NCBI GenBank assembly: GCA_018434685.1
Contig: JAHDOV010000033.1
Span: forward strand, 1-46,869
DNA length: 46,869 nt
Source: Deltaproteobacteria bacterium
GTDB lineage: Bacteria > Desulfobacterota > Desulfomonilia > UBA1062
Direction: 5' to 3'
The position numbers and the translations under genes were made by a program. Position 1 is the first letter of the stretch. Each line of letters begins with the position of its first letter. Of this stretch, positions 10,681 to 22,338 are shown in pieces. The notes beneath the pieces were generated by a model. The model was not told the DNA's origin. It worked only from the letters and a program-made list of their open reading frames with translations, and made no database searches.

Positions 10681-11820
10681 ATGAGTACGAGAGAAGCGGC
10701 CGTAACCGAACGCGTCGGGTATTCCTGCCTTGTCGAAGAAGTCGCGTTGAAATGTATCGAGTGTTCTTTATGTGTCCAGCAGTGTGAGTTCCTGAGCCTG
10801 TTTTGTGAATCCCCACGGCAACTGGCAGTCAGTTTCATGCAGGGGGATCTTGAGAAAGACTCCTATATTCCCTACCTCTGTACCCTGTGCGGCCTTTGTG
10901 AAGAGGTCTGCCCGCTGGATCTGAATATTGGTGACATGTGTTTTGAGGTGCGGCAAAAACTTGTGCGTAACGGAATCGGCCCGTTGCCTGCGCATGCCGC
11001 TGTGGAGAAGGAACAGAAAAGGGTAATGTCGGATCATTTCAGTCTGTCGTTTCCGGACCCGGCCACCGGAGGCTGCAGCAGGGTATTCATCCCGGGATGT
11101 CATTTGAGCGGATACTCGCCCGCCTTGGTCATGGCATCCTATGACTGGTTGCGAGAGCGACTGCCCGATACCGGCTTCATGCTGCGCTGCTGTGGTGCCC
11201 CAAGCCGCGATCTTGGTCAGCAAGACGTTTTTGAAGTGATGATGGCCGATATGCAGGCAGAGATCGCCGGAATGGGTGCCACCGAGATCATTGTGGCCTG
11301 CCCTAAATGCGGCAGCACCATCAAGACATGCTCTTTACCGTTCACCGTGAAGACCATCTACGAGATAATGGCCGAGGCAGGCCCAATAAAAACCGCTTTC
11401 AGAGGCGAACACACCTTTGCCCTGCACGATCCGTGTTCCGGACGTCGGGACGGGTACACCCAGGAATGTGTGCGCTCGATCTTGCGGTCATCGGGCTGCG
11501 AGGTGGAAGAGTTCAGGAATCATGGTACCGGAACCACCTGCTGCGGCATGGGTGGCATGGTGGCATATGTGTCGCCTGACATGAGCGATGCCGTCAGGGA
11601 CAGACGTCTGGAAGAGACTCCGACCGAGATAGTGACCTATTGCGCCGGTTGCCGGGATGCCTTTGCCGGCCGGCGCCCGGCCCTCCACATCCTTGACCTG
11701 CTCTTCAATCCCGATTGGGAAGACGACCTCGTCAGGCCACCTCACAACCGGGCTATGCAGCAGGATAACCAGTGGATTCTCAAGACACTGCTTAGTAAAA
11801 AGTATGGGTTACAGGACTGA
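10681..11820 (+). CDS. HdrD/GlpC-like (Fe-S)-binding oxidoreductase with two CCG domains
   Basis: A 379-residue cytoplasmic electron-transfer protein. The N-terminus carries two 4Fe-4S motifs, C25-C28-C31-C35 and C67-C70-C73-C77 (the last followed by Pro). Two cysteine-rich CCG modules follow: CPKC 207-210 with CCG 170-172, and CCG 287-289 with CxxC 321-324. This layout matches heterodisulfide reductase subunit D, GlpC and related dicluster proteins, where CCG domains hold a non-cubane cluster for disulfide chemistry. No flavin partner is adjacent. GAGGAG precedes the ATG at 10681. It is first in the seven-gene cluster and presumably delivers electrons to it. Confidence 0.88.
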   Translation: MSTREAAVTERVGYSCLVEEVALKCIECSLCVQQCEFLSLFCESPRQLAVSFMQGDLEKDSYIPYLCTLCGLCEEVCPLDLNIGDMCFEVRQKLVRNGIGPLPAHAAVEKEQKRVMSDHFSLSFPDPATGGCSRVFIPGCHLSGYSPALVMASYDWLRERLPDTGFMLRCCGAPSRDLGQQDVFEVMMADMQAEIAGMGATEIIVACPKCGSTIKTCSLPFTVKTIYEIMAEAGPIKTAFRGEHTFALHDPCSGRRDGYTQECVRSILRSSGCEVEEFRNHGTGTTCCGMGGMVAYVSPDMSDAVRDRRLEETPTEIVTYCAGCRDAFAGRRPALHILDLLFNPDWEDDLVRPPHNRAMQQDNQWILKTLLSKKYGLQD

Positions 11821-11868
11821 CGAGGGATACTTATCTCGCAGGATAACAAAAGTGAAAGGAAGACACCG

Positions 11869-12168
11869 ATGAGTATTTGGGGTGATGGTTCAACGCAGCA
11901 CAAGTCGATCAAAATTATTATGAGTGAGAGTACGCGTATGGCTACCCGGCAGAGGAATTTATTCGAGAAGGAATTTCCTCAATTCATCATTTATAACGCC
12001 GAAGAAAGCAATGAAAAGATGTATTCTAAAGAAGATGGTCGGTTTCTTGCCAACGGTGTCATCGGCGAAATGCTGGTGCATGTGGAATATTCGATAACTG
12101 AAGAGGCAGGCGAGAAGGTCTACAACGTGATTGCGGTCTATGCCTGCCGGACACAGATCAAGGGGTAA
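11869..12168 (+). CDS. Unrecognised 99-residue protein in the redox/radical SAM cluster
   Basis: I do not recognise this family. It starts at ATG 11869 behind GAAAGGAAG and ends 3 bp before the next gene, so it is translationally linked to the mini redox protein. The sequence is soluble, mixed alpha/beta, with a Lys/Arg-rich first half, a central acidic stretch (AEESNEKMYSKEDG, about residues 44-57) and a beta-rich C-terminus with a single Cys in YACRTQIKG. No signal peptide or membrane segment is present. Its tight position suggests a small accessory or scaffold subunit. Confidence 0.75.
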   Translation: MSIWGDGSTQHKSIKIIMSESTRMATRQRNLFEKEFPQFIIYNAEESNEKMYSKEDGRFLANGVIGEMLVHVEYSITEEAGEKVYNVIAVYACRTQIKG

Positions 12169-12171
12169 GAC

Positions 12172-12369
12172 ATGGATGAGACACAATGGTATTGCGCAAA
12201 GTGTAATGAAAAGATGACCAAGAAGAAGATTCCAACCATATTCATGGGAAAAATAGGATTTGAAGAGGGATATTTCTGCCCCAGGTGCAAGACGAGATTC
12301 TTTAGCGAAGATGTTGTCCAAAGGAGTATTGCAGCCAAAGAGGTTGACGCAGAAGGCAAGCTGCAGTGA
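12172..12369 (+). CDS. Two-CxxC mini redox protein (zinc-ribbon/rubredoxin-like, DVU_1557-type)
   Basis: A 65-residue protein with CAKC (residues 8-11) and CPRC (about 37-40), spaced like a rubredoxin or zinc ribbon, separated by a beta-hairpin segment. It would bind one Fe or Zn. From memory it resembles the small redox proteins that sit beside a methyltransferase and a radical SAM (seleno)protein in Desulfovibrio (DVU_1556/1557 region); this needs a profile search. AAGGGG lies just upstream of the ATG, overlapping the end of the preceding gene. It may pass electrons from the HdrD-like protein to the radical SAM enzyme. Confidence 0.75.
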   Translation: MDETQWYCAKCNEKMTKKKIPTIFMGKIGFEEGYFCPRCKTRFFSEDVVQRSIAAKEVDAEGKLQ

Positions 12370-12406
12370 ACCGGGTTGTCCGGAAGGGCAGGAATGGTGT
12401 GCTGTG

Positions 12407-13195
12407 ATGAAAGAGACGGTCGTTCAGGCCTATGAGTCGGATACATTCAATCGAGCCCTGGATGAAAGCCTGCACCCCGGGGGGCTCGATCTTACCGAAT
12501 ACATGGCCTGTACCGCCGGGATCACAGAAGATTCGGTCGTTTTAGACATAGCGACCGGGCGGGGGACCTCGGCGTGTTTCCTGGCTGGGTTTTGTAATTG
12601 CTGTATCGAAGGCATCGATCTTTCGCGTGCGTCACTGTCGCAGGCTCGGGCCAAGGCCGCCTGTCAGGGTGTGTCACACAAGGTGCGGTTCCACCTGGCG
12701 GATATCGAGGAACTCCCGTTCAAGGATGCAGCATTCGACTACGTCGTCAGCGAATGCTCCTTTTCCCTGCTGCCCGACAAGTCCGCCGGGGCCACAGAAA
12801 TCGCGCGTGTGCTCAAACCGGGCGGGAAATTCGCCTTTACGGACATGTTTCTTGAGCACCGGTTCAGCGATGAACTCAAGAGCCTGGTGCCTTTTGATTG
12901 CTGTTTTACAGGAGCGCAGACCCGCGATGATTATGAAGCCCTGTTTGGGCTGGTTGGTCTCAAGTCGCAGCTTTTCGAAGACCACTCCTTTTCCCTGCGC
13001 GAAATCACTGACAAACTTCGCGGGGAATACGGATCGCTTCAGGTCTTCTGGAACCAGTTCGGCAAGGGCACGGCATCACTATGCACCGGTACACCTGATG
13101 CGGGCGGAAGTTGCGAAGGCTATGGCAGCCTCTGGAAAAGGGTCTTTGCCGAGGGTAAGCCGGGATACTGCCTGATGGTGATGGAAAAGGTCTGA
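12407..13195 (+). CDS. Class I SAM-dependent methyltransferase (DVU_1556/TrsM-like)
   Basis: A 262-residue Rossmann-fold methyltransferase. Motif I is VVLDIATGRGTSACFLA (about 46-62), the acidic motif II is GIDLSRASL (about 68-76), and motif post-I/III is FHLADIEELPFKDAAFDYVV (about 97-116), the ubiquinone/menaquinone-biosynthesis-like subgroup. The opening YESDTFNRAL...HPGGLDLTEY is typical, as I recall, of methyltransferases in Desulfovibrio radical SAM clusters. The start at ATG 12407 (or GTG 12404) is chosen because longer frames overlap the redox gene; the ribosome site (AGGAA) is weak, so translation may be coupled to the preceding gene. The substrate is unknown. Confidence 0.85.
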   Translation: MKETVVQAYESDTFNRALDESLHPGGLDLTEYMACTAGITEDSVVLDIATGRGTSACFLAGFCNCCIEGIDLSRASLSQARAKAACQGVSHKVRFHLADIEELPFKDAAFDYVVSECSFSLLPDKSAGATEIARVLKPGGKFAFTDMFLEHRFSDELKSLVPFDCCFTGAQTRDDYEALFGLVGLKSQLFEDHSFSLREITDKLRGEYGSLQVFWNQFGKGTASLCTGTPDAGGSCEGYGSLWKRVFAEGKPGYCLMVMEKV

Positions 13196-13221
13196 GGTGA
13201 TCGCTTCGTAAAGAAACAACA

Positions 13222-13240
13222 GTGCGACCGTAAGTCGCAC
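13222..13240 (+). promoter_or_regulatory. Small hairpin between methyltransferase and radical SAM genes
   Basis: Perfect 7-bp arms GTGCGAC (13222-13228) and GTCGCAC (13234-13240) around the loop CGTAA, in the 125-bp gap inside the cluster. No T-run follows. It could tune read-through or mRNA stability. Confidence 0.35.
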
Positions 13241-13320
13241 CGCGCGGTGCCGGATGTCGCCACACAGCCTGCGAGCGGATTCTGCAGGTATGCCTGATTC
13301 GAAAACGACAAGAGGATACC

Positions 13321-14691
13321 ATGATAGAAGACAAGATAATCACGCGAAGCCTGTGTCCACAATGCCTGCGGGAGATCCCCGCCTTCAAGGTGACAGATGG
13401 CAAAGACGTGTTCATCGAGAAGATCTGTCCGCAGCATGGATATTTCAAGACGGTCATCTGGAGGGGGCATCCCTCTTACGAGGAGTGGGGCAGGGGGGAG
13501 AATGCGCCCGGACCGCAGCATGACCTGACCCGGAGCGAACACGGCTGTCCACATGACTGCGGGCTGTGCACGCAGCACAAGGCGCGGACCTGCACGGTCC
13601 TCATGGAGGTGACAAACCGTTGCAACCTGAACTGCCCGGTCTGTTTTGCCAGCGCCGAAAAGACCGGCATTTTCGAACCCGATCTGGACGGGATTCGTGC
13701 CATGCTCGAGGCCGTAGTCACCTCCGGCGGTCCGTATCCGCTGCAGATCAGCGGCGGCGAGCCCACGGTGCGCGATGACCTGGCCGCCATCATTTCCATG
13801 GCCAAGAAGATGGGATTTCCGCATGTGCAGGTCAACACCAATGCCCTGCGGCTGGCCAGGGAGCCGGACTATCTCCTGGAGCTCAGGGATGCCGGACTGG
13901 ACATGGTCTACATGCAGTTCGACGGCGTCAGCGATGATGTATACCGGCGCACGCGCGGCGCCGATCTCGTGGCCGTGAAGGAAGAGGCCCTGAAAAACTG
14001 CACTGCGGCCAAGATTGCGGTTCAACTGGTCCCCACACTTATTCCAGGGGTTAATACGCACCAGACAGGTGCAATCATTCAATATGCCAAGAAATGGATT
14101 CCGGTGGTCAAAGGCGTTCATTTTCAACCGGTTTCCTATTTCGGCCGTTACCCGACGGCACCAGGCGATGCGCAAAGGGTAACCCTGCCCGAGGTGCTCC
14201 GGGACCTGGAAATTCAGACCGCAGGCGAGATAAAGGCCGTAAACTTTCTCCCGCGTCGGCGCAGCGATTCCCACTGCGGCTTTTCAGGCTTCTTTATTCT
14301 GGATGAGAACAACACCCTGCAGCCAACCACCTTCTTCCGGCTGCAGGAGCCTTCGTGTTCGCGCTGCAGCGATATACAGGGACGTCCGGATCCATCGGAA
14401 CACTTCCGTCGGTTTATTCAGGAACGCTCGGTTTATGTGGAGCCGTCGATGGAGGACCAAAGGTCGCAGAACGAACTTGAGCGGTTTTACCAACGGGCCC
14501 GCTCGCACTACCTGTCGATCTCGGGCATGCCTTTCCAGGATGCCTGGACTATCGATCTCGACCGGTTGCAGGGGTGTTGCATCCATGTCATCTCGCCTGT
14601 CACCCGTCGGTTGATCCCATTTTGTGCCTATTACCTGACCGGCTCCAACGGTCAGAGACTGCCGGGCAAGGGTTTTTTGCCCGGTCTCTGA
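13321..14691 (+). CDS. Radical SAM protein, tetraether-synthase-like (TrsS/MJ0619-type) architecture
   Basis: A 456-residue enzyme. The radical SAM cluster ligands are C101, C105 and C108 (CNLNCPVCFA), followed by the SAM-binding ISGGEPT (143-149). Upstream is an unusual cysteine-rich N-terminal domain: CPQC 12-15, CPQHG 36-40, and CPHDCGLC 76-83. Further Cys occur in HCGFSG, CSRCSD, QGCC and PFCAYY near the C-terminus. This N-terminal layout is that of archaeal tetraether lipid synthase homologues and of a radical SAM (seleno)protein group in Desulfovibrio. No in-frame TGA is seen, so this is a Cys form. AGAGG precedes the ATG. The reaction is unknown: radical C-C or C-S chemistry on an acyl or thiol substrate is plausible. 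Confidence 0.85.
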   Translation: MIEDKIITRSLCPQCLREIPAFKVTDGKDVFIEKICPQHGYFKTVIWRGHPSYEEWGRGENAPGPQHDLTRSEHGCPHDCGLCTQHKARTCTVLMEVTNRCNLNCPVCFASAEKTGIFEPDLDGIRAMLEAVVTSGGPYPLQISGGEPTVRDDLAAIISMAKKMGFPHVQVNTNALRLAREPDYLLELRDAGLDMVYMQFDGVSDDVYRRTRGADLVAVKEEALKNCTAAKIAVQLVPTLIPGVNTHQTGAIIQYAKKWIPVVKGVHFQPVSYFGRYPTAPGDAQRVTLPEVLRDLEIQTAGEIKAVNFLPRRRSDSHCGFSGFFILDENNTLQPTTFFRLQEPSCSRCSDIQGRPDPSEHFRRFIQERSVYVEPSMEDQRSQNELERFYQRARSHYLSISGMPFQDAWTIDLDRLQGCCIHVISPVTRRLIPFCAYYLTGSNGQRLPGKGFLPGL

Positions 14692-14701
14692 GGATTGAGA
14701 T

Positions 14702-15889
14702 ATGTCACTTGCAAGCAGGAAATTTAAGGCAACAGCGCCCAAGGCCATCGACGACGGGGTCATTACCGAAAAGGCCCTTAAAGATTTCGAATGCCGGGTC
14801 GGGTCGCAGCTGCGGATAAGAAATATCTTCAACGAGATTGCATCCAAGGATGCGATCCGCAAGTTTGCCGATGGTATCGGTGACGGCAACCCCCTGTGGC
14901 GCGAGGCGGCCTATGCATCGCAGAGCGAATATGGTTCTATCGTTGCCCCGCCGTCGTGGCTCAACAGCGTATTTCCGACCTGGGTGCTGCAGGGACTGCC
15001 CGGGGTGCATGCCATTCATATCAGCACCGGGTGGGAGTTTTACCGGCCCGTCTACCTGGGAGATACAATCACCCCGCAGTGTTTCTTTACCGGGTTCGAG
15101 ATCAAATCCAACACCCTGGCCGGTCGATCGGTCATCGAACGCCAGGAGGCACGGTATTTCAACCAGGCCGGCGAACTGGTGGCAATGGCTCAACCGGTGG
15201 GTTTCCGTTCGGAACGCACCTCGATTCGCCAGAACAGGAAATACATGGACCTCGAGCTCCCGCATCCCTGGACCGAGGAGGAACTCCTGGAGATAGAAGA
15301 TCAGGTCCTGGGCGAGGAAATCCGCGGTGCAAACCCGCGTTACTGGGAGGATGTCGAATTGGGCGAAGCCCTCACGCCGGTTGTGAAGGGACCTCTGGGT
15401 ATGACCGATGCCCTGGCATTCTGCATCGGTGCGGCTCCGGTGCAGATCAAGGCCCACGGCCTGGCGCTCAAAGAGTATCGCAAACATCCGGCCTGGTGCT
15501 TTCGGGATCCGGTAACCTGCGCCCTGGAACCGGTCTACGGGGTGCATTACAACAAGGCTGCTGCCAACGCCTGCGGCCTGCCTTACCCCTACGATGCCGC
15601 GGTGCAGCGAAACTGCTGGCAGATTCATCTGCTGACAAACTGGATGGGCGATCAGGGCTGGTTGCAGCGTTGTTATGCGGAGTATCGCAAATTCGTGTAT
15701 TTTTCGGATGTTGTCTGGCTTACTGGCCGGGTCGTGAAGAAATATATTGATGAAAAAGGGGAGAGTTGCGTGGACATCGAAACCCGGGCCGAAAACCAGC
15801 GCGGCGAGGATGTCATGCCGGGTAGGGCAACCGTGCTGCTGCCATCGAGGCAAACCGGCTATTGTCCTCTCGAGCGCAGGCTGCGGTGA
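14702..15889 (+). CDS. MaoC-type double-hotdog acyl-CoA dehydratase-like protein
   Basis: A 395-residue protein with two hotdog domains. The N-terminal half resembles the FAS1-type dehydratase domain (FADGIGDGNPLWREAAYA near residues 57-74, then VAPPSWLNSVFPTWV and GWEFYRPVYLGDTI), which keeps the D-x-N-P-x-x segment of R-hydratases. The C-terminal half keeps VELGEALTPVVKGPLGMTD and the late YRKFVYFSDVVWLTGRV. It should act on a beta-hydroxyacyl or enoyl-CoA/ACP thioester in the cytoplasm. It begins 10 bp after the radical SAM gene with GAGGATTGAG upstream, so the two are co-transcribed. Confidence 0.83.
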   Translation: MSLASRKFKATAPKAIDDGVITEKALKDFECRVGSQLRIRNIFNEIASKDAIRKFADGIGDGNPLWREAAYASQSEYGSIVAPPSWLNSVFPTWVLQGLPGVHAIHISTGWEFYRPVYLGDTITPQCFFTGFEIKSNTLAGRSVIERQEARYFNQAGELVAMAQPVGFRSERTSIRQNRKYMDLELPHPWTEEELLEIEDQVLGEEIRGANPRYWEDVELGEALTPVVKGPLGMTDALAFCIGAAPVQIKAHGLALKEYRKHPAWCFRDPVTCALEPVYGVHYNKAAANACGLPYPYDAAVQRNCWQIHLLTNWMGDQGWLQRCYAEYRKFVYFSDVVWLTGRVVKKYIDEKGESCVDIETRAENQRGEDVMPGRATVLLPSRQTGYCPLERRLR

Positions 15890-16277
15890 TGGAAGCGGAC
15901 CCGGCAAGATCACATATCAGAAGCAAGAATGTACACAAGGGAGTCAACTGCAAAACTTATAAGGTGCATAACTTCTTGCGAAGCCTGCCCTCGCAAGGCA
16001 TGGAGAGGGGGCGAGGTTGTTGAAAAACTGGATTGCAGCGTCCGCGGGAATGACAAATACGGACCTTCGCACGTACCTCAAGTGATAAGAACTCAGGTAG
16101 GTAGCCTGAAGGCTGTCAGGAAAAGCGGACACAGGACATACTTTGAGGACATATTTTATGAGAAGATGTGCCGTTTCTTCGCCAAAATGCGTCAATCGTG
16201 CTTTTCGGGTTCCTTCAGCCTTCAGACTAAATTGCTTCAGCCTGACTACGTGAGTAGTTACAAAAAAGGAAGAGATT
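15890..16277. other. 388-bp gap inside the cluster, no gene supported
   Basis: Between the hotdog and ligase genes. A 119-codon open frame runs through it on the plus strand, but it lacks a ribosome site and any recognisable motif, and reads across the ligase start. AGGAAGAG at its right end (about 16268-16275) serves the ligase. No strong hairpin was found. Confidence 0.4.
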
Positions 16278-17663
16278 ATGAATTTTGAAATAAAGATTCA
16301 CGAGAAGATCATACAGGATTTCAACACTGACGCTCATTACCGGGCCTTTACGGGCAAGGACTCGATGGAGGGCGTGACAAGGGATGATATCGAGACATAC
16401 CAGCTCTTTTGCTTTCGGGAGATGATGCGGTATGCCTGTGAGAAGAGTTCTTTTTATAAAAACCTCTATGCCGGCTTGGACGAGATCACATCGATGGACG
16501 ACGTCGCCGGTATCCCGTTGACAGGAGCCGACGATCTTGCCGAACACCCTTACGAGATGGCCTGCATCCCCCTGACAGAGATCGCACGGGTCTTCTGCCA
16601 CACCACAACCGGTACCACCTCCGGTGAACCCAAGAAGATCTTTTTCACCCACAGTGATGCCGATATCATCGTCGACAGTATGGAGGGGGTCCTGCGAACC
16701 GTAATGGACGGAACCGGTGTGGACGAATGTGGCAGCCGGGTCCATATTCTGCTGCCCAACCATGGGGCACCCCTGAGTATCGCCGGCCTGATCGCACAGG
16801 GCGTCGAGCGCATGCAAGGCGAGCCAGAGATCGGCGACTGCTATACGAGTACGGAAGAACAGATTCGTGCGATCGAAGCGAGTCGGCCGCACATGATCAT
16901 GGGCTCGGCCTTCCGGATCTGGCGGATCACCCAGGAAGCGAGACACTTTCACGATCTGGCCAAAATGGGGCTCAAGCGCATATTTATCACCTCGGAATAC
17001 CTCTCGACCCCCATGCGCAGGTACATGGAGCAGTGGTGGCAGGCCGAGGTTTACCACCACTACGGCATGACCGAACCGGGTTTTGTGATCGGGATCGAGT
17101 GCGATCAGCACGACGGGTTCCACTTCAATGAAGCCGATCTCCTCTTCGAGGTGGTCGATCCGATAACCGGCGAGGTTGTCCCGGACGGACACGAAGGCGA
17201 ACTGGTCTTAACGACCCTGAACCGCACGGCCATGCCCTTGATTCGCTACCGCACAGGAGATGTCGCCCGGCTGATACGAACCCCCTGCGCCTGCGGTGCA
17301 GCAACCCTGATCAGGATTGGCAAACTGCCGTTGAGACATGCCCTGATCGTGAAAATAGGGGAGAACGAAAGCATCTATTCCTCCCTGTTTGACGAGGCAC
17401 TGTACCAGATCCCTGAACTGATCGACTACCGCATCTTTATTTCGAAAGAAAACGGACAGGATGTGCTCGAATGCGTAGCCGAGATCTTTGGCGAACCGAC
17501 CGGCAAAGAAGGTCTCCTGATCGAACAACTCCTGAGCATAGCGCCTGTCAGAAAAAGCATTGACCAGGAACTGCTGGCACCACCCCGCATCCGCTTCACC
17601 AAACGGGGTGAACTCAGACGAGGCGGCAGGACCCAGAAACGACGCATCAAGGATACCCGCTGA
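16278..17663 (+). CDS. AMP-dependent CoA ligase, phenylacetate-CoA-ligase-like (DVU_1553-type)
   Basis: A 461-residue adenylate-forming enzyme. The ATP-binding P-loop is TTTGTTSGEPKKI (109-121), the A5 segment is YHHYGMTEPGF (about 258-268), and the A7 segment is RYRTGDVARL (about 320-329); a C-terminal subdomain with KRGELRRGG ends the protein. These match phenylacetate-CoA ligases and the CoA ligases that I recall next to radical SAM (seleno)protein clusters in Desulfovibrio. It would activate an organic acid with ATP and CoA. It is last in the cluster, 388 bp after the hotdog gene, in the same direction; the start at 16278 follows AGGAAGAG. Confidence 0.85.
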   Translation: MNFEIKIHEKIIQDFNTDAHYRAFTGKDSMEGVTRDDIETYQLFCFREMMRYACEKSSFYKNLYAGLDEITSMDDVAGIPLTGADDLAEHPYEMACIPLTEIARVFCHTTTGTTSGEPKKIFFTHSDADIIVDSMEGVLRTVMDGTGVDECGSRVHILLPNHGAPLSIAGLIAQGVERMQGEPEIGDCYTSTEEQIRAIEASRPHMIMGSAFRIWRITQEARHFHDLAKMGLKRIFITSEYLSTPMRRYMEQWWQAEVYHHYGMTEPGFVIGIECDQHDGFHFNEADLLFEVVDPITGEVVPDGHEGELVLTTLNRTAMPLIRYRTGDVARLIRTPCACGAATLIRIGKLPLRHALIVKIGENESIYSSLFDEALYQIPELIDYRIFISKENGQDVLECVAEIFGEPTGKEGLLIEQLLSIAPVRKSIDQELLAPPRIRFTKRGELRRGGRTQKRRIKDTR

Positions 17664-18439: not shown

Positions 18440-20140
18440 CTAATGTGGTTCATCACCGCCTACGGTCTGTATCTTCGTAAATTTTGCCCCTGTCAGAGAC
18501 GCAATGATAACGAGTGTAGTGGAAATCAGGATCATGATAATTCCGAGGGCAGAGAGCCTGCCCCAGAGGCCATCTTCGGCGAACCGAAGCACCTGTACTG
18601 CCAGGACTTCGGTTCCCGGCCTGGAGAGCACAACCGAGAGCGTGAGTTCCCGCACGAACATGGTTGCCATCAGTATCCAGGCGGAAACGATTCCCGGAAT
18701 CAACAGAGGTATGATAATCCGGCGAAGCGTGTACAGGGTCCCGGCACCGCAGACCTTGGAAGATTCCTCGAGATGAGCGTGAATCTGAACAAAGGCGCTC
18801 GTCAGCGGTCGTATTCCATAGGGAAGATAGGTGGCAATGTACCCTATGAGCAGTGCCCAGATGGTGGCATAAAGGGGGGTTCTGACAAACAGCCACATGA
18901 AGCCCACCCCTATGACGATGCCCGGGAACGAAAAGGAGAGAAAACTCAGAGACTCCAGAATGCCCGAGGCCGCTGTCCGCACCTTGACGATGGCATAGCA
19001 CACGAAGATCGAGAGGATAACGCCGAGCGTGGCGCCGACTATACCCAGGAACATGCTGTTCTTCACAGAGAGGATCGATATGGGGTCGCCCAGCACCTCG
19101 GTCCAGTTGCGCAGACTCATCATGGAGAATGCCCGTGCACTGGGGACCATGGAGTAGGGGACCATGGAGGTGTAGAGGAGAACCAGCACGGGCAGGACAA
19201 TGAGGATGAAGGAGAGCACGGCCACAATGACAAAGAAGGGATACTTGGCCTTTTTCAGGTCGATGACGGCGGGACGGTATCCCCGACTGGAAATGGTCAC
19301 GTATTTGTCTCCCTCTGCTGTCAGATACCGGTACAGGTAGATGAGGATGGTGGAGGAGGCCAGGGCGCTCATGCCCACTGCCGCCGCCATCCCGTAATCG
19401 GTGGCAAAACCGGTGGCAATAATGCGGTATATGTGGGTGGCCAGTACATAGATGCGGCCGGGCATGCCGATGACGGAAGGCACGGCAAAGGAGGCGAGGC
19501 TGCGCACGATAACCAGGGTGATGGAGGCCAGTATTGCCGGGCGGAGGATGGGCAGCGTCACCATGAAAAGCGTCCGCAGGTTGGATGCGCCGCACACCTT
19601 GGATGATTCCTCCATGGACACATCAAAAGAGGCCAGTGCCGGGGCGAGGATCAGGTAGGCGATGGGAAGGTCGAGCAGACCCTCGACGAGGATCATCCCC
19701 GGCAGGGTGTAAATATTGAAGGGCGAAGAGGAGAGGTTGAACACATCCTTGAGGAAAAGATTGATGAGACCGTTGGAGGGGTTCAGGAGCAGAAGCCAGC
19801 TCACGGCAAACAGGATGTGGGGAATCATCATGGGAATGATGGATATGATACGAAAGAGGAACTTGAAGGGGATGTTGGTGCGCGTATTGAGATATGCCAG
19901 AAACAGGGCAAGCAGCGTAGCAACAACGGCAGATCCCAGGGTAAAGATGATGGTGTTGACTATGATCTCGGCAAAGGCAGGGTCTGTGTACGACTGAATA
20001 TATTTATCCAGGGTGAAGGTGCCGAACGAACCCAGCCCCTGCGAAAAACTCCCGAGAATGAGCATGACCACGGGACACACGGTGAGGAGTCCCACGATCA
20101 CGATAAGGCCAAACGTCAGGGGGGTTGATTTCCTCTGCAT
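18440..20140 (-). CDS. ABC transporter permease, fused two-domain (Fbp/Afu-like)
   Basis: A 566-residue inner-membrane protein with two fused permease halves, about twelve transmembrane helices in all. Each half carries the EAA loop that docks on the ATPase: EESSKVCGASNLRTLFMVTL (about residues 177-196) and EESSKVCGAGTLYTLRRIII (about 462-481). Fused permeases of this type belong to Fe(III), thiamine and related importers. It is the last gene of a three-gene minus-strand operon, 15 bp after the ATPase gene. The substrate is probably Fe(III) or a small anionic compound such as a phosphonate; sequence alone does not decide. Confidence 0.9.
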   Translation of the reverse strand: MQRKSTPLTFGLIVIVGLLTVCPVVMLILGSFSQGLGSFGTFTLDKYIQSYTDPAFAEIIVNTIIFTLGSAVVATLLALFLAYLNTRTNIPFKFLFRIISIIPMMIPHILFAVSWLLLLNPSNGLINLFLKDVFNLSSSPFNIYTLPGMILVEGLLDLPIAYLILAPALASFDVSMEESSKVCGASNLRTLFMVTLPILRPAILASITLVIVRSLASFAVPSVIGMPGRIYVLATHIYRIIATGFATDYGMAAAVGMSALASSTILIYLYRYLTAEGDKYVTISSRGYRPAVIDLKKAKYPFFVIVAVLSFILIVLPVLVLLYTSMVPYSMVPSARAFSMMSLRNWTEVLGDPISILSVKNSMFLGIVGATLGVILSIFVCYAIVKVRTAASGILESLSFLSFSFPGIVIGVGFMWLFVRTPLYATIWALLIGYIATYLPYGIRPLTSAFVQIHAHLEESSKVCGAGTLYTLRRIIIPLLIPGIVSAWILMATMFVRELTLSVVLSRPGTEVLAVQVLRFAEDGLWGRLSALGIIMILISTTLVIIASLTGAKFTKIQTVGGDEPH

Positions 20141-20155
20141 TGTTTTCCCGCCTGT

Positions 20156-21244
20156 CTACTTCAACAGTATGGAGCAGTGGTTCGGATCGAAACTCAGTGC
20201 TACCGTATCGCCTTGTTTTACATCGAGCGTCGGCTCCACCCGTACGATCAGCTCTGTGTCCCCCACCCGGATCTCGCCTTCGTACGCATCGCCGACAAAG
20301 ATCAATGAATCGATGCGCCCGCTGAATAGGTTTGGTCCTTCGCCGCCGGCCTTTTCCTTCACATGGATGAACTCGGGCCGTATGCACACCACAACGGCAT
20401 CACCGGGCGAGACGTCTTTCTTCTTTCTGCAGACAATGGGGCCCAGCGAGGTATCTACAATCGTGTGGTTGATACCGACCCGTGATATGCTGCCTTCGAC
20501 AAGATTCGCCCGGCCTATGAAATCGGCGACGAAACTGCGGTCAGAGTCAAAATAGATCTTCTTTGGCGTGCCTATCTCCACGATCCGTCCGTCTTTCATA
20601 ACCGCCACGGTGTCTGACAGGGACAGGGCCTCAATCCTGTCATGCGTCACATACACCGCGGTAATCCTCAATTTTGTGAGAAATTCGCGGAGTTCCTTCC
20701 TGGTTTCTTCCCTCAGTTTGGCGTCCAGGTTGCTCAGAGGTTCGTCAAAGAGGATCACCTTTGGTTCAGCCACAAGGGCCCGCGCAAGGGCTACGCGCTG
20801 CTGCTGACCCCCGCTCAGTTTCGTTGCCGGCCTGTTCTCAAAACCCCCGAGCTGTACGAAATGAAGGGTCTTCTTTACCCTGTCCCTGATTTCTTCTTTG
20901 GGCTTTTTCTGGGTCTGGAGAGGGTAGGCGACGTTGTCGAATACATTCATGTGAGGCCAGATGGCATAGGATTGAAAAACCATACTCAGCCCGCGTTTCT
21001 CAGGAGGCACGAGGATTCCCTTGTCTTTCGAAAAGACGATCTCATCCCCGATCCGTATCTCACCCTCATCGGGTATCTCGAGCCCGACAATCGATCTGAG
21101 CAGGGTGGTCTTTCCACACCCGCTCGGACCCAGAAGCGTGAATATCTCGTTGGCAGGAATGGCCAGATTCACATCGAAGAGGGCTTCGATGCGCCTGCCT
21201 TCCGAAAAATAGCTCTTGCTGAGCTTTGAGATGTGAATATCCAC
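20156..21244 (-). CDS. ABC transporter ATP-binding protein (Fbp/Pot-like, with TOBE domain)
   Basis: A 362-residue importer ATPase. Walker A GPSGCGKT 39-46, Q-loop VFQSYAIWP (about 89-97), signature LSGGQQQR 143-150, Walker B VILFDEP 163-169, switch His in YVTHD. The region after residue 240 is the regulatory TOBE domain (IGRANLVEGSI, then VCIRPEFIHV). It pairs with the downstream fused permease and the upstream solute-binding protein. ATP hydrolysis on the cytoplasmic face powers import. Confidence 0.92.
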   Translation of the reverse strand: MDIHISKLSKSYFSEGRRIEALFDVNLAIPANEIFTLLGPSGCGKTTLLRSIVGLEIPDEGEIRIGDEIVFSKDKGILVPPEKRGLSMVFQSYAIWPHMNVFDNVAYPLQTQKKPKEEIRDRVKKTLHFVQLGGFENRPATKLSGGQQQRVALARALVAEPKVILFDEPLSNLDAKLREETRKELREFLTKLRITAVYVTHDRIEALSLSDTVAVMKDGRIVEIGTPKKIYFDSDRSFVADFIGRANLVEGSISRVGINHTIVDTSLGPIVCRKKKDVSPGDAVVVCIRPEFIHVKEKAGGEGPNLFSGRIDSLIFVGDAYEGEIRVGDTELIVRVEPTLDVKQGDTVALSFDPNHCSILLK

Positions 21245-21330
21245 GGTACACCCCCACCCAGGTCATGAAGCTTCTCCTGTCGTGCCTCACGGCCCGAACA
21301 TGGCCGGAACATAATCCATAGACAAGCCTT

Positions 21331-22338
21331 TTACTTCACGTCAAAGATGGCCTTGAATTCCATGGCCCATTCCTGGATCTCTTTATCCGAGAGGGTCCGA
21401 ATGGGCAGCACCTTGGCCTTGTCGATCCCGGCAACCGGCGGATAGACGCCCGGATAGAGAACATACTCGCCCACCTTTTCAGCCAGCATCGTCATGGCAT
21501 CCTTTGACAGCCAGTAGTCCATAAATATCTTTCCCGCATTGGGATGGGGCGCTGAGGCGGTTATCGCGATTCCGCGGGGGGTGCCGAGAAGGGGCTGGCT
21601 TATCTGCGCCCAGTCAAGGGGGGCCGGGGCCTTGGTGATGATGTATTTCGGCATGGATATGGCAATGAGTTTCTCCCCGCTTTCCACCGGCGCCGGCGTG
21701 GGACCGAACGAGGCCACGAACATGGGCCTGTTGGCTGCAAGGCCTTTGAGGAAATTCCGCCAGTCCTCCTCTGAGGCGAATACCTGTTCCTTTAATCCGA
21801 CGAGCCAGGAAATGGTGGTGGCATGTGCCGAGGGGTTGGCCATGACGATCTTGTCGCGCCATTTCGGGTCTGTGAGGTCTTCATACCGCTTGGGCACATC
21901 TTGGGGCTTGACAAGTTCCTTGTTGTATATGAGGGCGACGTATTCTATGCCGAAGACCTGTATCTGGTCGTCTTTCCTCGTCCACTCGGGATAATCCTGG
22001 CCGACGCTCGAACTGTAGGACGCCAGGACGCCCTTTTCCTTGAGCATCTCCATGATAGGCATGGGAGCCTGAAGGACATCTGCCATGAGCTTGCCGGCCT
22101 CGAACTCGGTGGTGACGGTTGCGAAGAACTTGTTTGTGGACATCCTCGTGTACACTCCCTGGACGCCATACTCGGCTGTGAACGCCTCCACAATGGGTTC
22201 GATTGCCGTTATATTGGCATAGAATGCTGCCTTTCCCTCCTTTTTTGCCTGTGCAAGCACATCCTTGTCCATCTGTTGGGCCGCATACGTGCTGGAGGCC
22301 AGGAGCAGAGTCATCAACAGGACAATAAATTTTTTCAT
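21331..22338 (-). CDS. Extracellular solute-binding protein of the ABC importer (Fe(III)-type family)
   Basis: A 335-residue periplasmic binding protein with a clear signal peptide (MKKFIVLLMTLLLASSTYAA, residues 1-20). The mature part follows the family-1 / AfuA-like pattern: an ITAIEPIVEAFTAEYG segment near 43, the middle VMANPSAHATTISWLVG, and the late PHPNAGKIFMDYWLS. It captures the ligand and delivers it to the permease. First gene of the operon, behind AAAAGGAGGAAAAAC. Whether it binds Fe(III) or another ligand is not resolved. Confidence 0.9.
   Translation of the reverse strand: MKKFIVLLMTLLLASSTYAAQQMDKDVLAQAKKEGKAAFYANITAIEPIVEAFTAEYGVQGVYTRMSTNKFFATVTTEFEAGKLMADVLQAPMPIMEMLKEKGVLASYSSSVGQDYPEWTRKDDQIQVFGIEYVALIYNKELVKPQDVPKRYEDLTDPKWRDKIVMANPSAHATTISWLVGLKEQVFASEEDWRNFLKGLAANRPMFVASFGPTPAPVESGEKLIAISMPKYIITKAPAPLDWAQISQPLLGTPRGIAITASAPHPNAGKIFMDYWLSKDAMTMLAEKVGEYVLYPGVYPPVAGIDKAKVLPIRTLSDKEIQEWAMEFKAIFDVK

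Follow-up and report, generated by a model that had tools for sequence, protein, structure and literature searches.

A variant Trs locus in a deltaproteobacterial contig with a double-hotdog protein in place of the aldehyde oxidoreductase

The 46,869 nucleotides of contig JAHDOV010000033.1 (assembly GCA_018434685.1, Deltaproteobacteria bacterium, lineage Desulfobacterota, UBA1062), referred to here in full length as the window, contain at positions 10681–17663 a cluster of seven genes that is a variant of the Trs locus, namely a rare version with a different output enzyme. In most Trs loci this output enzyme is a molybdenum aldehyde oxidoreductase (AOR) of the Desulfovibrio gigas type, and in the window a MaoC-type double-hotdog protein stands in its place. 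Loci of the Trs kind have already been named in NCBIfam but are uncharacterised in the literature we searched. In the reading that we prefer, with a rough probability of 0.4, an acid activated by the ligase of the locus would enter radical chemistry resembling that of the tetraether synthase Tes, and the hotdog protein would handle the CoA ester. The main gain of the analysis is that Trs could be reduced to a core, that the output enzyme was found to vary and that the core could be tied to the D. gigas-type AOR; the physiological role of the AOR can thereby be tested jointly with the reaction of a bacterial Tes relative.

All seven open reading frames (ORFs) are intact, lie on the plus strand and have a plausible start each, which confirms the same-direction cluster described in a first-pass annotation. 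They encode an HdrD-like dicluster/CCG protein (g1, 10681..11820), a 99-aa protein (g2 or T99, 11869..12168), a DVU_1557-like mini redox/zinc-ribbon protein with two CxxC motifs (g3, 12172..12369), an ArsM-like methyltransferase of the DVU_1556 family that depends on S-adenosylmethionine (SAM; g4, 12404..13195, with GTG 12404 or ATG 12407 as alternative starts), the Tes-related radical SAM enzyme TrsS (g5, 13321..14691), a double-hotdog MaoC-type hydratase/dehydratase (g6, 14702..15889) and a PaaK-like AMP-forming ligase of the DVU_1553 family with a C-terminal domain (g7, 16278..17663). The spacers from g1 to g7 measure 48, 3, 34, 125, 10 and 388 nt, so that the short gaps of the earlier description hold for five of them and fail only before the ligase gene. 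Profile searches with NCBIfam and Pfam are consistent with the earlier family assignments except for the 99-aa protein, and the idea of one functional unit akin to the DVU_1553/1556/1557 plus radical SAM (seleno)protein set of Desulfovibrio is supported. The hotdog protein had been regarded as an addition to that set, and g6 indeed falls outside the NCBIfam Trs families.

TrsS, counted by the cut-off of model NF045646, was detected in 43 of the 395 genomes surveyed in the phylum, with partial or split matches in G039 and G312. We read 40 neighbourhoods, with more added later, and tabulated 38 Trs loci, the window included, with iterated profiles; the loci were read from stretches of at most 20 kb with simple ORF calling, a procedure that may overlook short genes and genes with frameshifts. 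All 38 loci contain TrsS, the 99-aa domain and the mini protein; nearly all have the methyltransferase, and most have the ligase. Variable components are the dicluster protein, whose dicluster part is absent from five of the loci, a C-GCAxxG-C-C protein and the catalytic output enzyme. The usual order is AOR, flavin/dicluster/99-aa, mini protein, methyltransferase, C-GCAxxG-C-C protein, TrsS and ligase, often followed by a MocA-like nucleoside triphosphate (NTP) transferase; the models for this canonical, Desulfovibrio-type locus are NF045646 with those for DVU_1551/1553/1555/1556/1557, NF045663 and, for the AOR, NF045668. The window holds orthologues of its TrsS, ligase, methyltransferase, mini protein, dicluster protein and 99-aa domain in the shared order dicluster–99-aa–mini–methyltransferase–TrsS–ligase, but lacks the AOR, the NTP transferase, the C-GCAxxG-C-C protein and the flavin/NAD domain, and has instead a separate 99-aa gene and the added double-hotdog gene.

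The first-pass annotation had named co-occurrence of the seven genes in other genomes as the finding that would support it. A Chloroflexota metagenome-assembled genome (L046) carries all seven genes in identical order, with identities to the window of 62% for TrsS, 65% for the MaoC protein and 57% for the ligase, and most of the seven are present in other members of the window's TrsS clade; because of this recurrence the arrangement is not a product of chance. Genes scattered without conserved adjacency were not what we found among the loci examined. A scan of genome contigs with a single TrsS sequence returned three loci, one of them a different radical SAM protein with weak similarity (33% over 123 residues). 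Literature searches on DVU_1551–1559, on TrsS and on the combination of radical SAM enzymes and PaaK turned up nothing beyond proteomic tables that include DVU_1559 and an entry for TrsS in a selenoprotein review, and no function for Trs proteins was found in the literature searched, their names being supplied by the NCBIfam models.

The redox part of the cluster is built from pieces of a larger protein. With 290.8 bits, g1 scores below the full-length cut-off of 530 bits for NF045663 (diclust_near_Sec), while Pfam CCG and Fer4_17/Fer4_8 exceed their cut-offs; it covers positions 304–665 of this 759-position model, and g2 follows with positions 666–758 (32.4 bits, E 2.7e-8). Because the two proteins match consecutive parts of a single model, g2 is the detached C-terminal domain of the dicluster protein, encoded by a gene of its own. 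The earlier description of the 99-aa protein as an orphan is contradicted by this match and by its homologues in all 38 tabulated loci. The N-terminal flavin/pyridine-nucleotide part (1–303) is missing from g1, and the window locus has no full-length diclust_near_Sec protein. The mini protein g3 exceeds the Pfam cut-off for DUF7479 (38.3 against 27 bits) and stays well below that of the DVU_1557 model NF045645 (28.7 against 60 bits). In Hadesarchaea contig L047 a single fused protein comprises the 99-aa domain and the mini protein, which hints that they act together. The 99-aa domain (L047:2991-3449) also shows a weak, sub-threshold likeness to Pfam DUF4258 across the whole profile (20.6 against 25 bits). 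In the Chloroflexota locus, a NuoF-like gene, apparently preceded by a NuoE-like gene, stands immediately before the dicluster gene (L046:4737-7092) and is a possible entry point for NADH in place of the flavin domain.

The AOR of the canonical locus belongs to the family of the D. gigas enzyme (1457 bits against 1sij; PDB 1sij, 1vlb), whereas the window genome holds no candidate for it by NF045668. AOR above cut-off was found in 34 of the 395 genomes, and 33 of these 34 are also TrsS genomes, with G241 as the exception; this overlap was counted by hand from the two lists, and as the loci are not independent it carries no p-value. Twelve of 45 TrsS genomes have no AOR match, nine of them, including the window's, with a locus of the AOR-less type; the other three are G104 with an AOR fragment in its Trs locus, G253 with a contig of 4.9 kb, and G358. 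Neither the AOR coupling of the canonical locus nor its absence in the window genome had been seen in the first-pass annotation. By locus numbering, we take DVU_1559 to be part of the canonical Trs locus. This D. vulgaris gene is annotated as an aldehyde oxidoreductase (PMC10920352).

The flavin domain is present in every AOR-containing tabulated locus, and among AOR-less loci it was scored only in L053 and L119. As it tracks the AOR in this way, we infer that this domain works for the AOR, and the dicluster/99-aa part for the Trs core. All AOR-holding tabulated loci, for example L058:12592-17932, encode close to the AOR a protein that combines flavin/pyridine-nucleotide and dicluster parts. 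This protein is a candidate flavin partner for the D. gigas-type AOR, for which flavodoxin has been proposed as a putative electron partner (PMC10223205).

In a tree of 32 TrsS sequences the window falls inside a ten-member clade (support 100/99), no searched member of which has AOR above cut-off (G542 was left out of this search); in the f55 and Hadesarchaea genomes, the search reached nothing stronger than xanthine-oxidase-family relatives below the AOR cut-off. Within this clade, the window, the Chloroflexota genome, G075 and G212 form a subclade (100/98). TrsS was found in only one of 23 searched relatives from the window's own family (G402), where the locus is arranged differently. Because these relatives mostly lack TrsS and the window protein is 62% identical to that of a Chloroflexota, trsS has probably been transferred between phyla. 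Some further genes were observed near the Trs loci of these groups. In G402, a DUF5714/MbdU-like metal-binding protein is encoded between TrsS and the ligase (L119:4707-5609), and in the f55 family (L053–L056) a TRAP transporter, an MtgC-like corrinoid protein and a RACo-like activator are encoded next to the Trs locus. Three of the four window-subclade members encode double-cubane/2-hydroxyacyl-CoA-dehydratase-like reductases with a BadF-type activase close to the Trs core (L046:13939-17414, L049, L050); such a double-cubane/HGD-D reductase was considered as a further partner and left out, as the window genome has only distant relatives (26% and 23%).

The protein that takes the place of the AOR in the window, g6, matches PF13452 with 54.4 bits, and its AlphaFold2 model (pLDDT 86.4) is a double hotdog. 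Its nearest folds are the mycobacterial dehydratase MSMEG_6754 (Z 28.6) and the MaoC-like dehydratase 5i7n (Z 28.0), followed by hydratase-2 (Z 23.4) and mesaconyl-CoA hydratase (Z 23.2); the identity to these MaoC-type enzymes is low (12–17%), and unlike theirs the Asp–His dyad is complete in neither half of g6. From its fold and the acyl-CoA gene contexts of its homologues, we predict that g6 is a working CoA-ester hydratase/dehydratase. Its gene lies between those of TrsS and the ligase in the window and likewise in the Chloroflexota genome. In G075, a 61% identical homologue adjoins a ligase 54% identical to g7, as a pair on a contig of its own, and the dicluster, T99, mini, methyltransferase and TrsS genes lie on a different contig without MaoC and ligase genes. 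Since the pair persists on this separate contig, the MaoC and ligase genes travel together. Close homologues of g6 (>60% identity) occur in three of 13 Trs genomes searched, and these three all belong to the window's four-member subclade; the genome of the fourth member, G212, is only 85% complete.

The best placed of the competing explanations, though itself rather unlikely, is that g6 is carried along as a passenger, being a catabolic gene that came to lie between trsS and the ligase gene without any relation to Trs. Relatives of g6 elsewhere do stand in ordinary acyl-CoA catabolic loci, adjoining CoA transferases, acyl-CoA ligases, enoyl-CoA hydratases and transporters (these neighbour functions were mostly read from sequence, with one ligase checked), and the incomplete catalytic motifs would fit a passenger as well. 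This explanation has to contend with the same position between trsS and the ligase gene in two phyla, with the pairing to the same ligase subfamily on the other contig of a third genome and with the 61–65% identity retained between the window protein and the other two copies.

Alternatively, the Trs core might modify or load the molybdenum centre of D. gigas-type AOR, with the AOR-less loci serving another enzyme. We consider this unlikely, and the maturation of an oxidoreductase likewise unlikely as the sole role of Trs. It would account for TrsS in 33 of the 34 AOR genomes and for the MocA-like NTP transferase of many canonical loci, but it is weakened most by the fact that a whole AOR-less clade, window included, retains the core. 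We also know of no role for a ligase, a methyltransferase and a radical enzyme together in maturing the AOR cofactor, which counts against it. The molybdenum centre of the Desulfovibrio AOR has been described as unusual in that an oxo replaces the sulfido ligand, which speaks for maturation, and the AOR structures solved so far are reported to contain a pterin cofactor of the cytosine dinucleotide type, which speaks against it (PMC10223205).

Returning to the preferred reading, its central enzyme is TrsS. With 568.8 bits, g5 exceeds the whole-protein cut-off of NF045646 (490 bits), while it scores 364.9 bits against the Tes model NF045702, below the cut-off of 450, with the match confined to residues 8–311. 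The similarity to the Tes structure 7tol (GDGT-MAS, MJ0619; E 7.6e-91) also stops at residue 311 except for short C-terminal blocks. The predicted model of g5 (pLDDT 86.9) superposes on Tes (7tom) with Z 41.1 over 402 residues, against Z 21.5 for the next-best fold family, MoaA. In the alignment of g5 with 31 relatives, with Tes numbering derived from 7tol, C12, C15, C36, H39, C76, C80, C83, H86, C101, C105, C108, C319, M403, C419 and C435 are invariant. The Tes ligands for the rubredoxin site (CX2CX20CX2H), the N-terminal cluster (C-x3-C-x2-C plus His) and the radical SAM cluster (CX3CX2C) are kept in 32 of 32 sequences, and M403 occupies the place of the labile Met439 of Tes, whose metal sites are described in PMC9433317. 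TrsS differs from Tes in the shorter stretch that links radical SAM core and C-terminal domain, in its bacterial operon with a ligase and a methyltransferase, and in the absence of a Tyr at the position of Tes Tyr459, which has been called strictly conserved and possibly catalytic (PMC9433317). As the fold and metal sites are kept and Tyr459 is not, TrsS is expected to generate its radical as Tes does and to pass through a similar cluster-bound carbon intermediate, while differing in substrate or outcome.

Bond formation on lipid chains had been raised as an option in the first-pass annotation. In such a scheme TrsS would link fatty-acyl or alkyl chains in the way Tes links archaeal lipids, and the chains would be prepared by the ligase and the hotdog protein. 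Tes is by far the nearest solved structure, with the same metal sites, and ligase and hotdog proteins are able to handle acyl chains. The lipid option finds no positive support beyond these metal sites, however, as Tyr459 is replaced by Val423 in g5, the sequence similarity to Tes breaks off at residue 311, g7 is PaaK-like and thus of an aryl-acid rather than a long-chain fatty acid ligase family, and it is not obvious what a coupled aldehyde oxidoreductase would do in lipid synthesis; we regard lipid cross-linking as improbable.

The methyltransferase g4 scores just below the cut-off of the DVU_1556 model NF045667 (143.8 against 155 bits), which its Chloroflexota orthologue passes with 155.9 bits. 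The ligase g7 lies barely above the cut-off of the DVU_1553 model NF045666 (302.6 against 300 bits) and aligns over residues 28–460 with phenylacetate-CoA ligase 4r1l (E 2.2e-40), from which it differs as a member of the DVU_1553 subfamily; it carries a C-terminal tail of 110 residues. Least probable of the alternatives is soft-element chemistry, in which g4 and TrsS would make an organic arsenic, selenium or thiol product: g4 resembles arsenite methyltransferases with one Cys aligned to the CxxGA motif of ArsM (5evj), selenoprotein forms of TrsS and C-GCAxxG-C-C proteins are listed (PMC13188914) and G402 encodes a DUF5714/MbdU-like metal-binding protein between its TrsS and ligase, but g4 falls far below the curated ArsM cut-off (89 against 263 bits), arsenic resistance or transport genes were not recognised in the loci read, and such a pathway offers no easy place for the PaaK ligase, the AOR or the hotdog protein. 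Neither the window's TrsS match nor any of those listed for the phylum contains an in-frame UGA for selenocysteine (Sec), and the Sec position was not located; the invariant positions are Cys in g5 and its 31 aligned relatives, leaving selenium chemistry, previously suggested as a purpose, unsupported.

In the preferred mechanism, g7 would activate a carboxylic acid to an acyl-adenylate or acyl-CoA, and g1, g2 and g3 would pass low-potential electrons to TrsS. TrsS would then generate a 5'-deoxyadenosyl radical, abstract hydrogen from an unactivated carbon and trap the carbon radical via its C-terminal auxiliary cluster as in Tes, leading to a C–C or C–S bond. The methyltransferase g4 may methylate the substrate or a thiol intermediate, and g6 would add or remove water on the CoA ester of the substrate or product, thereby feeding acyl-CoA metabolism. 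Families, folds, metal sites and gene linkage are shown by the analysis, and the individual chemical steps and their order are deduced from them. The combination of radical, methyl and acyl-CoA-type enzymes with iron–sulfur electron transfer had been recognised before, and the family matches bear out these enzyme types.

Several observations weigh against this mechanism. The residue at the Tes Tyr459 position is Val423 in g5 and Tyr in none of the aligned TrsS sequences, and without this residue the outcome of the radical step may differ. The hydratase motif Asp-x-Asn-Pro-x-His is incomplete in both halves of g6, with D61-G-N-P-L-W66 in the first, where Trp66 takes the place of the His of hydratases, and an invariant His282-x5-Ala288 without a preceding Asp in the second. 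No flavin or NAD module that could supply electrons adjoins g1 in the window. In the wider family, the ligases of L058, L065, L069, L070, L076, L077 and L121 lack the C-terminal domain (tails of 3–37 residues against about 96–119 elsewhere), which questions the CoA-thioester step in those loci; as several canonical ligases end before this domain, the activated form there may be the adenylate. Finally, our searches found a substrate, product or activity for none of the Trs core proteins.

In a broader version of the preferred reading, Trs would be a general anaerobic module for Tes-like coupling of sp3 carbons on ligase-activated acids with interchangeable output enzymes, the AOR in Desulfovibrio and a CoA-ester hydratase here. 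We regard this generalisation as doubtful; if true, it would place the D. gigas AOR in a pathway and supply the redox partner that this enzyme has lacked, namely the adjacent flavin/dicluster protein.

Some features around the genes complete the picture of the locus. No Rfam families were found near the cluster, and promoter and terminator patterns, counted 12 times each against shuffle means of 6.6 and 7.6, were not used as evidence. In the spacer between g6 and g7 (15890..16277), positions 202–360 are a degenerate genomic repeat with a 77% identical copy at C26:3454-3611 of the genome plus two short matches. Because this last spacer contains part of a repeated element, the ligase gene may form a separate transcription unit. 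On the minus strand and oriented towards the cluster, an ABC transporter is encoded at window positions 18440–22338, consisting of a fused permease of the 2-aminoethylphosphonate or spermidine/putrescine type, an ATPase with a TOBE domain and a binding protein.

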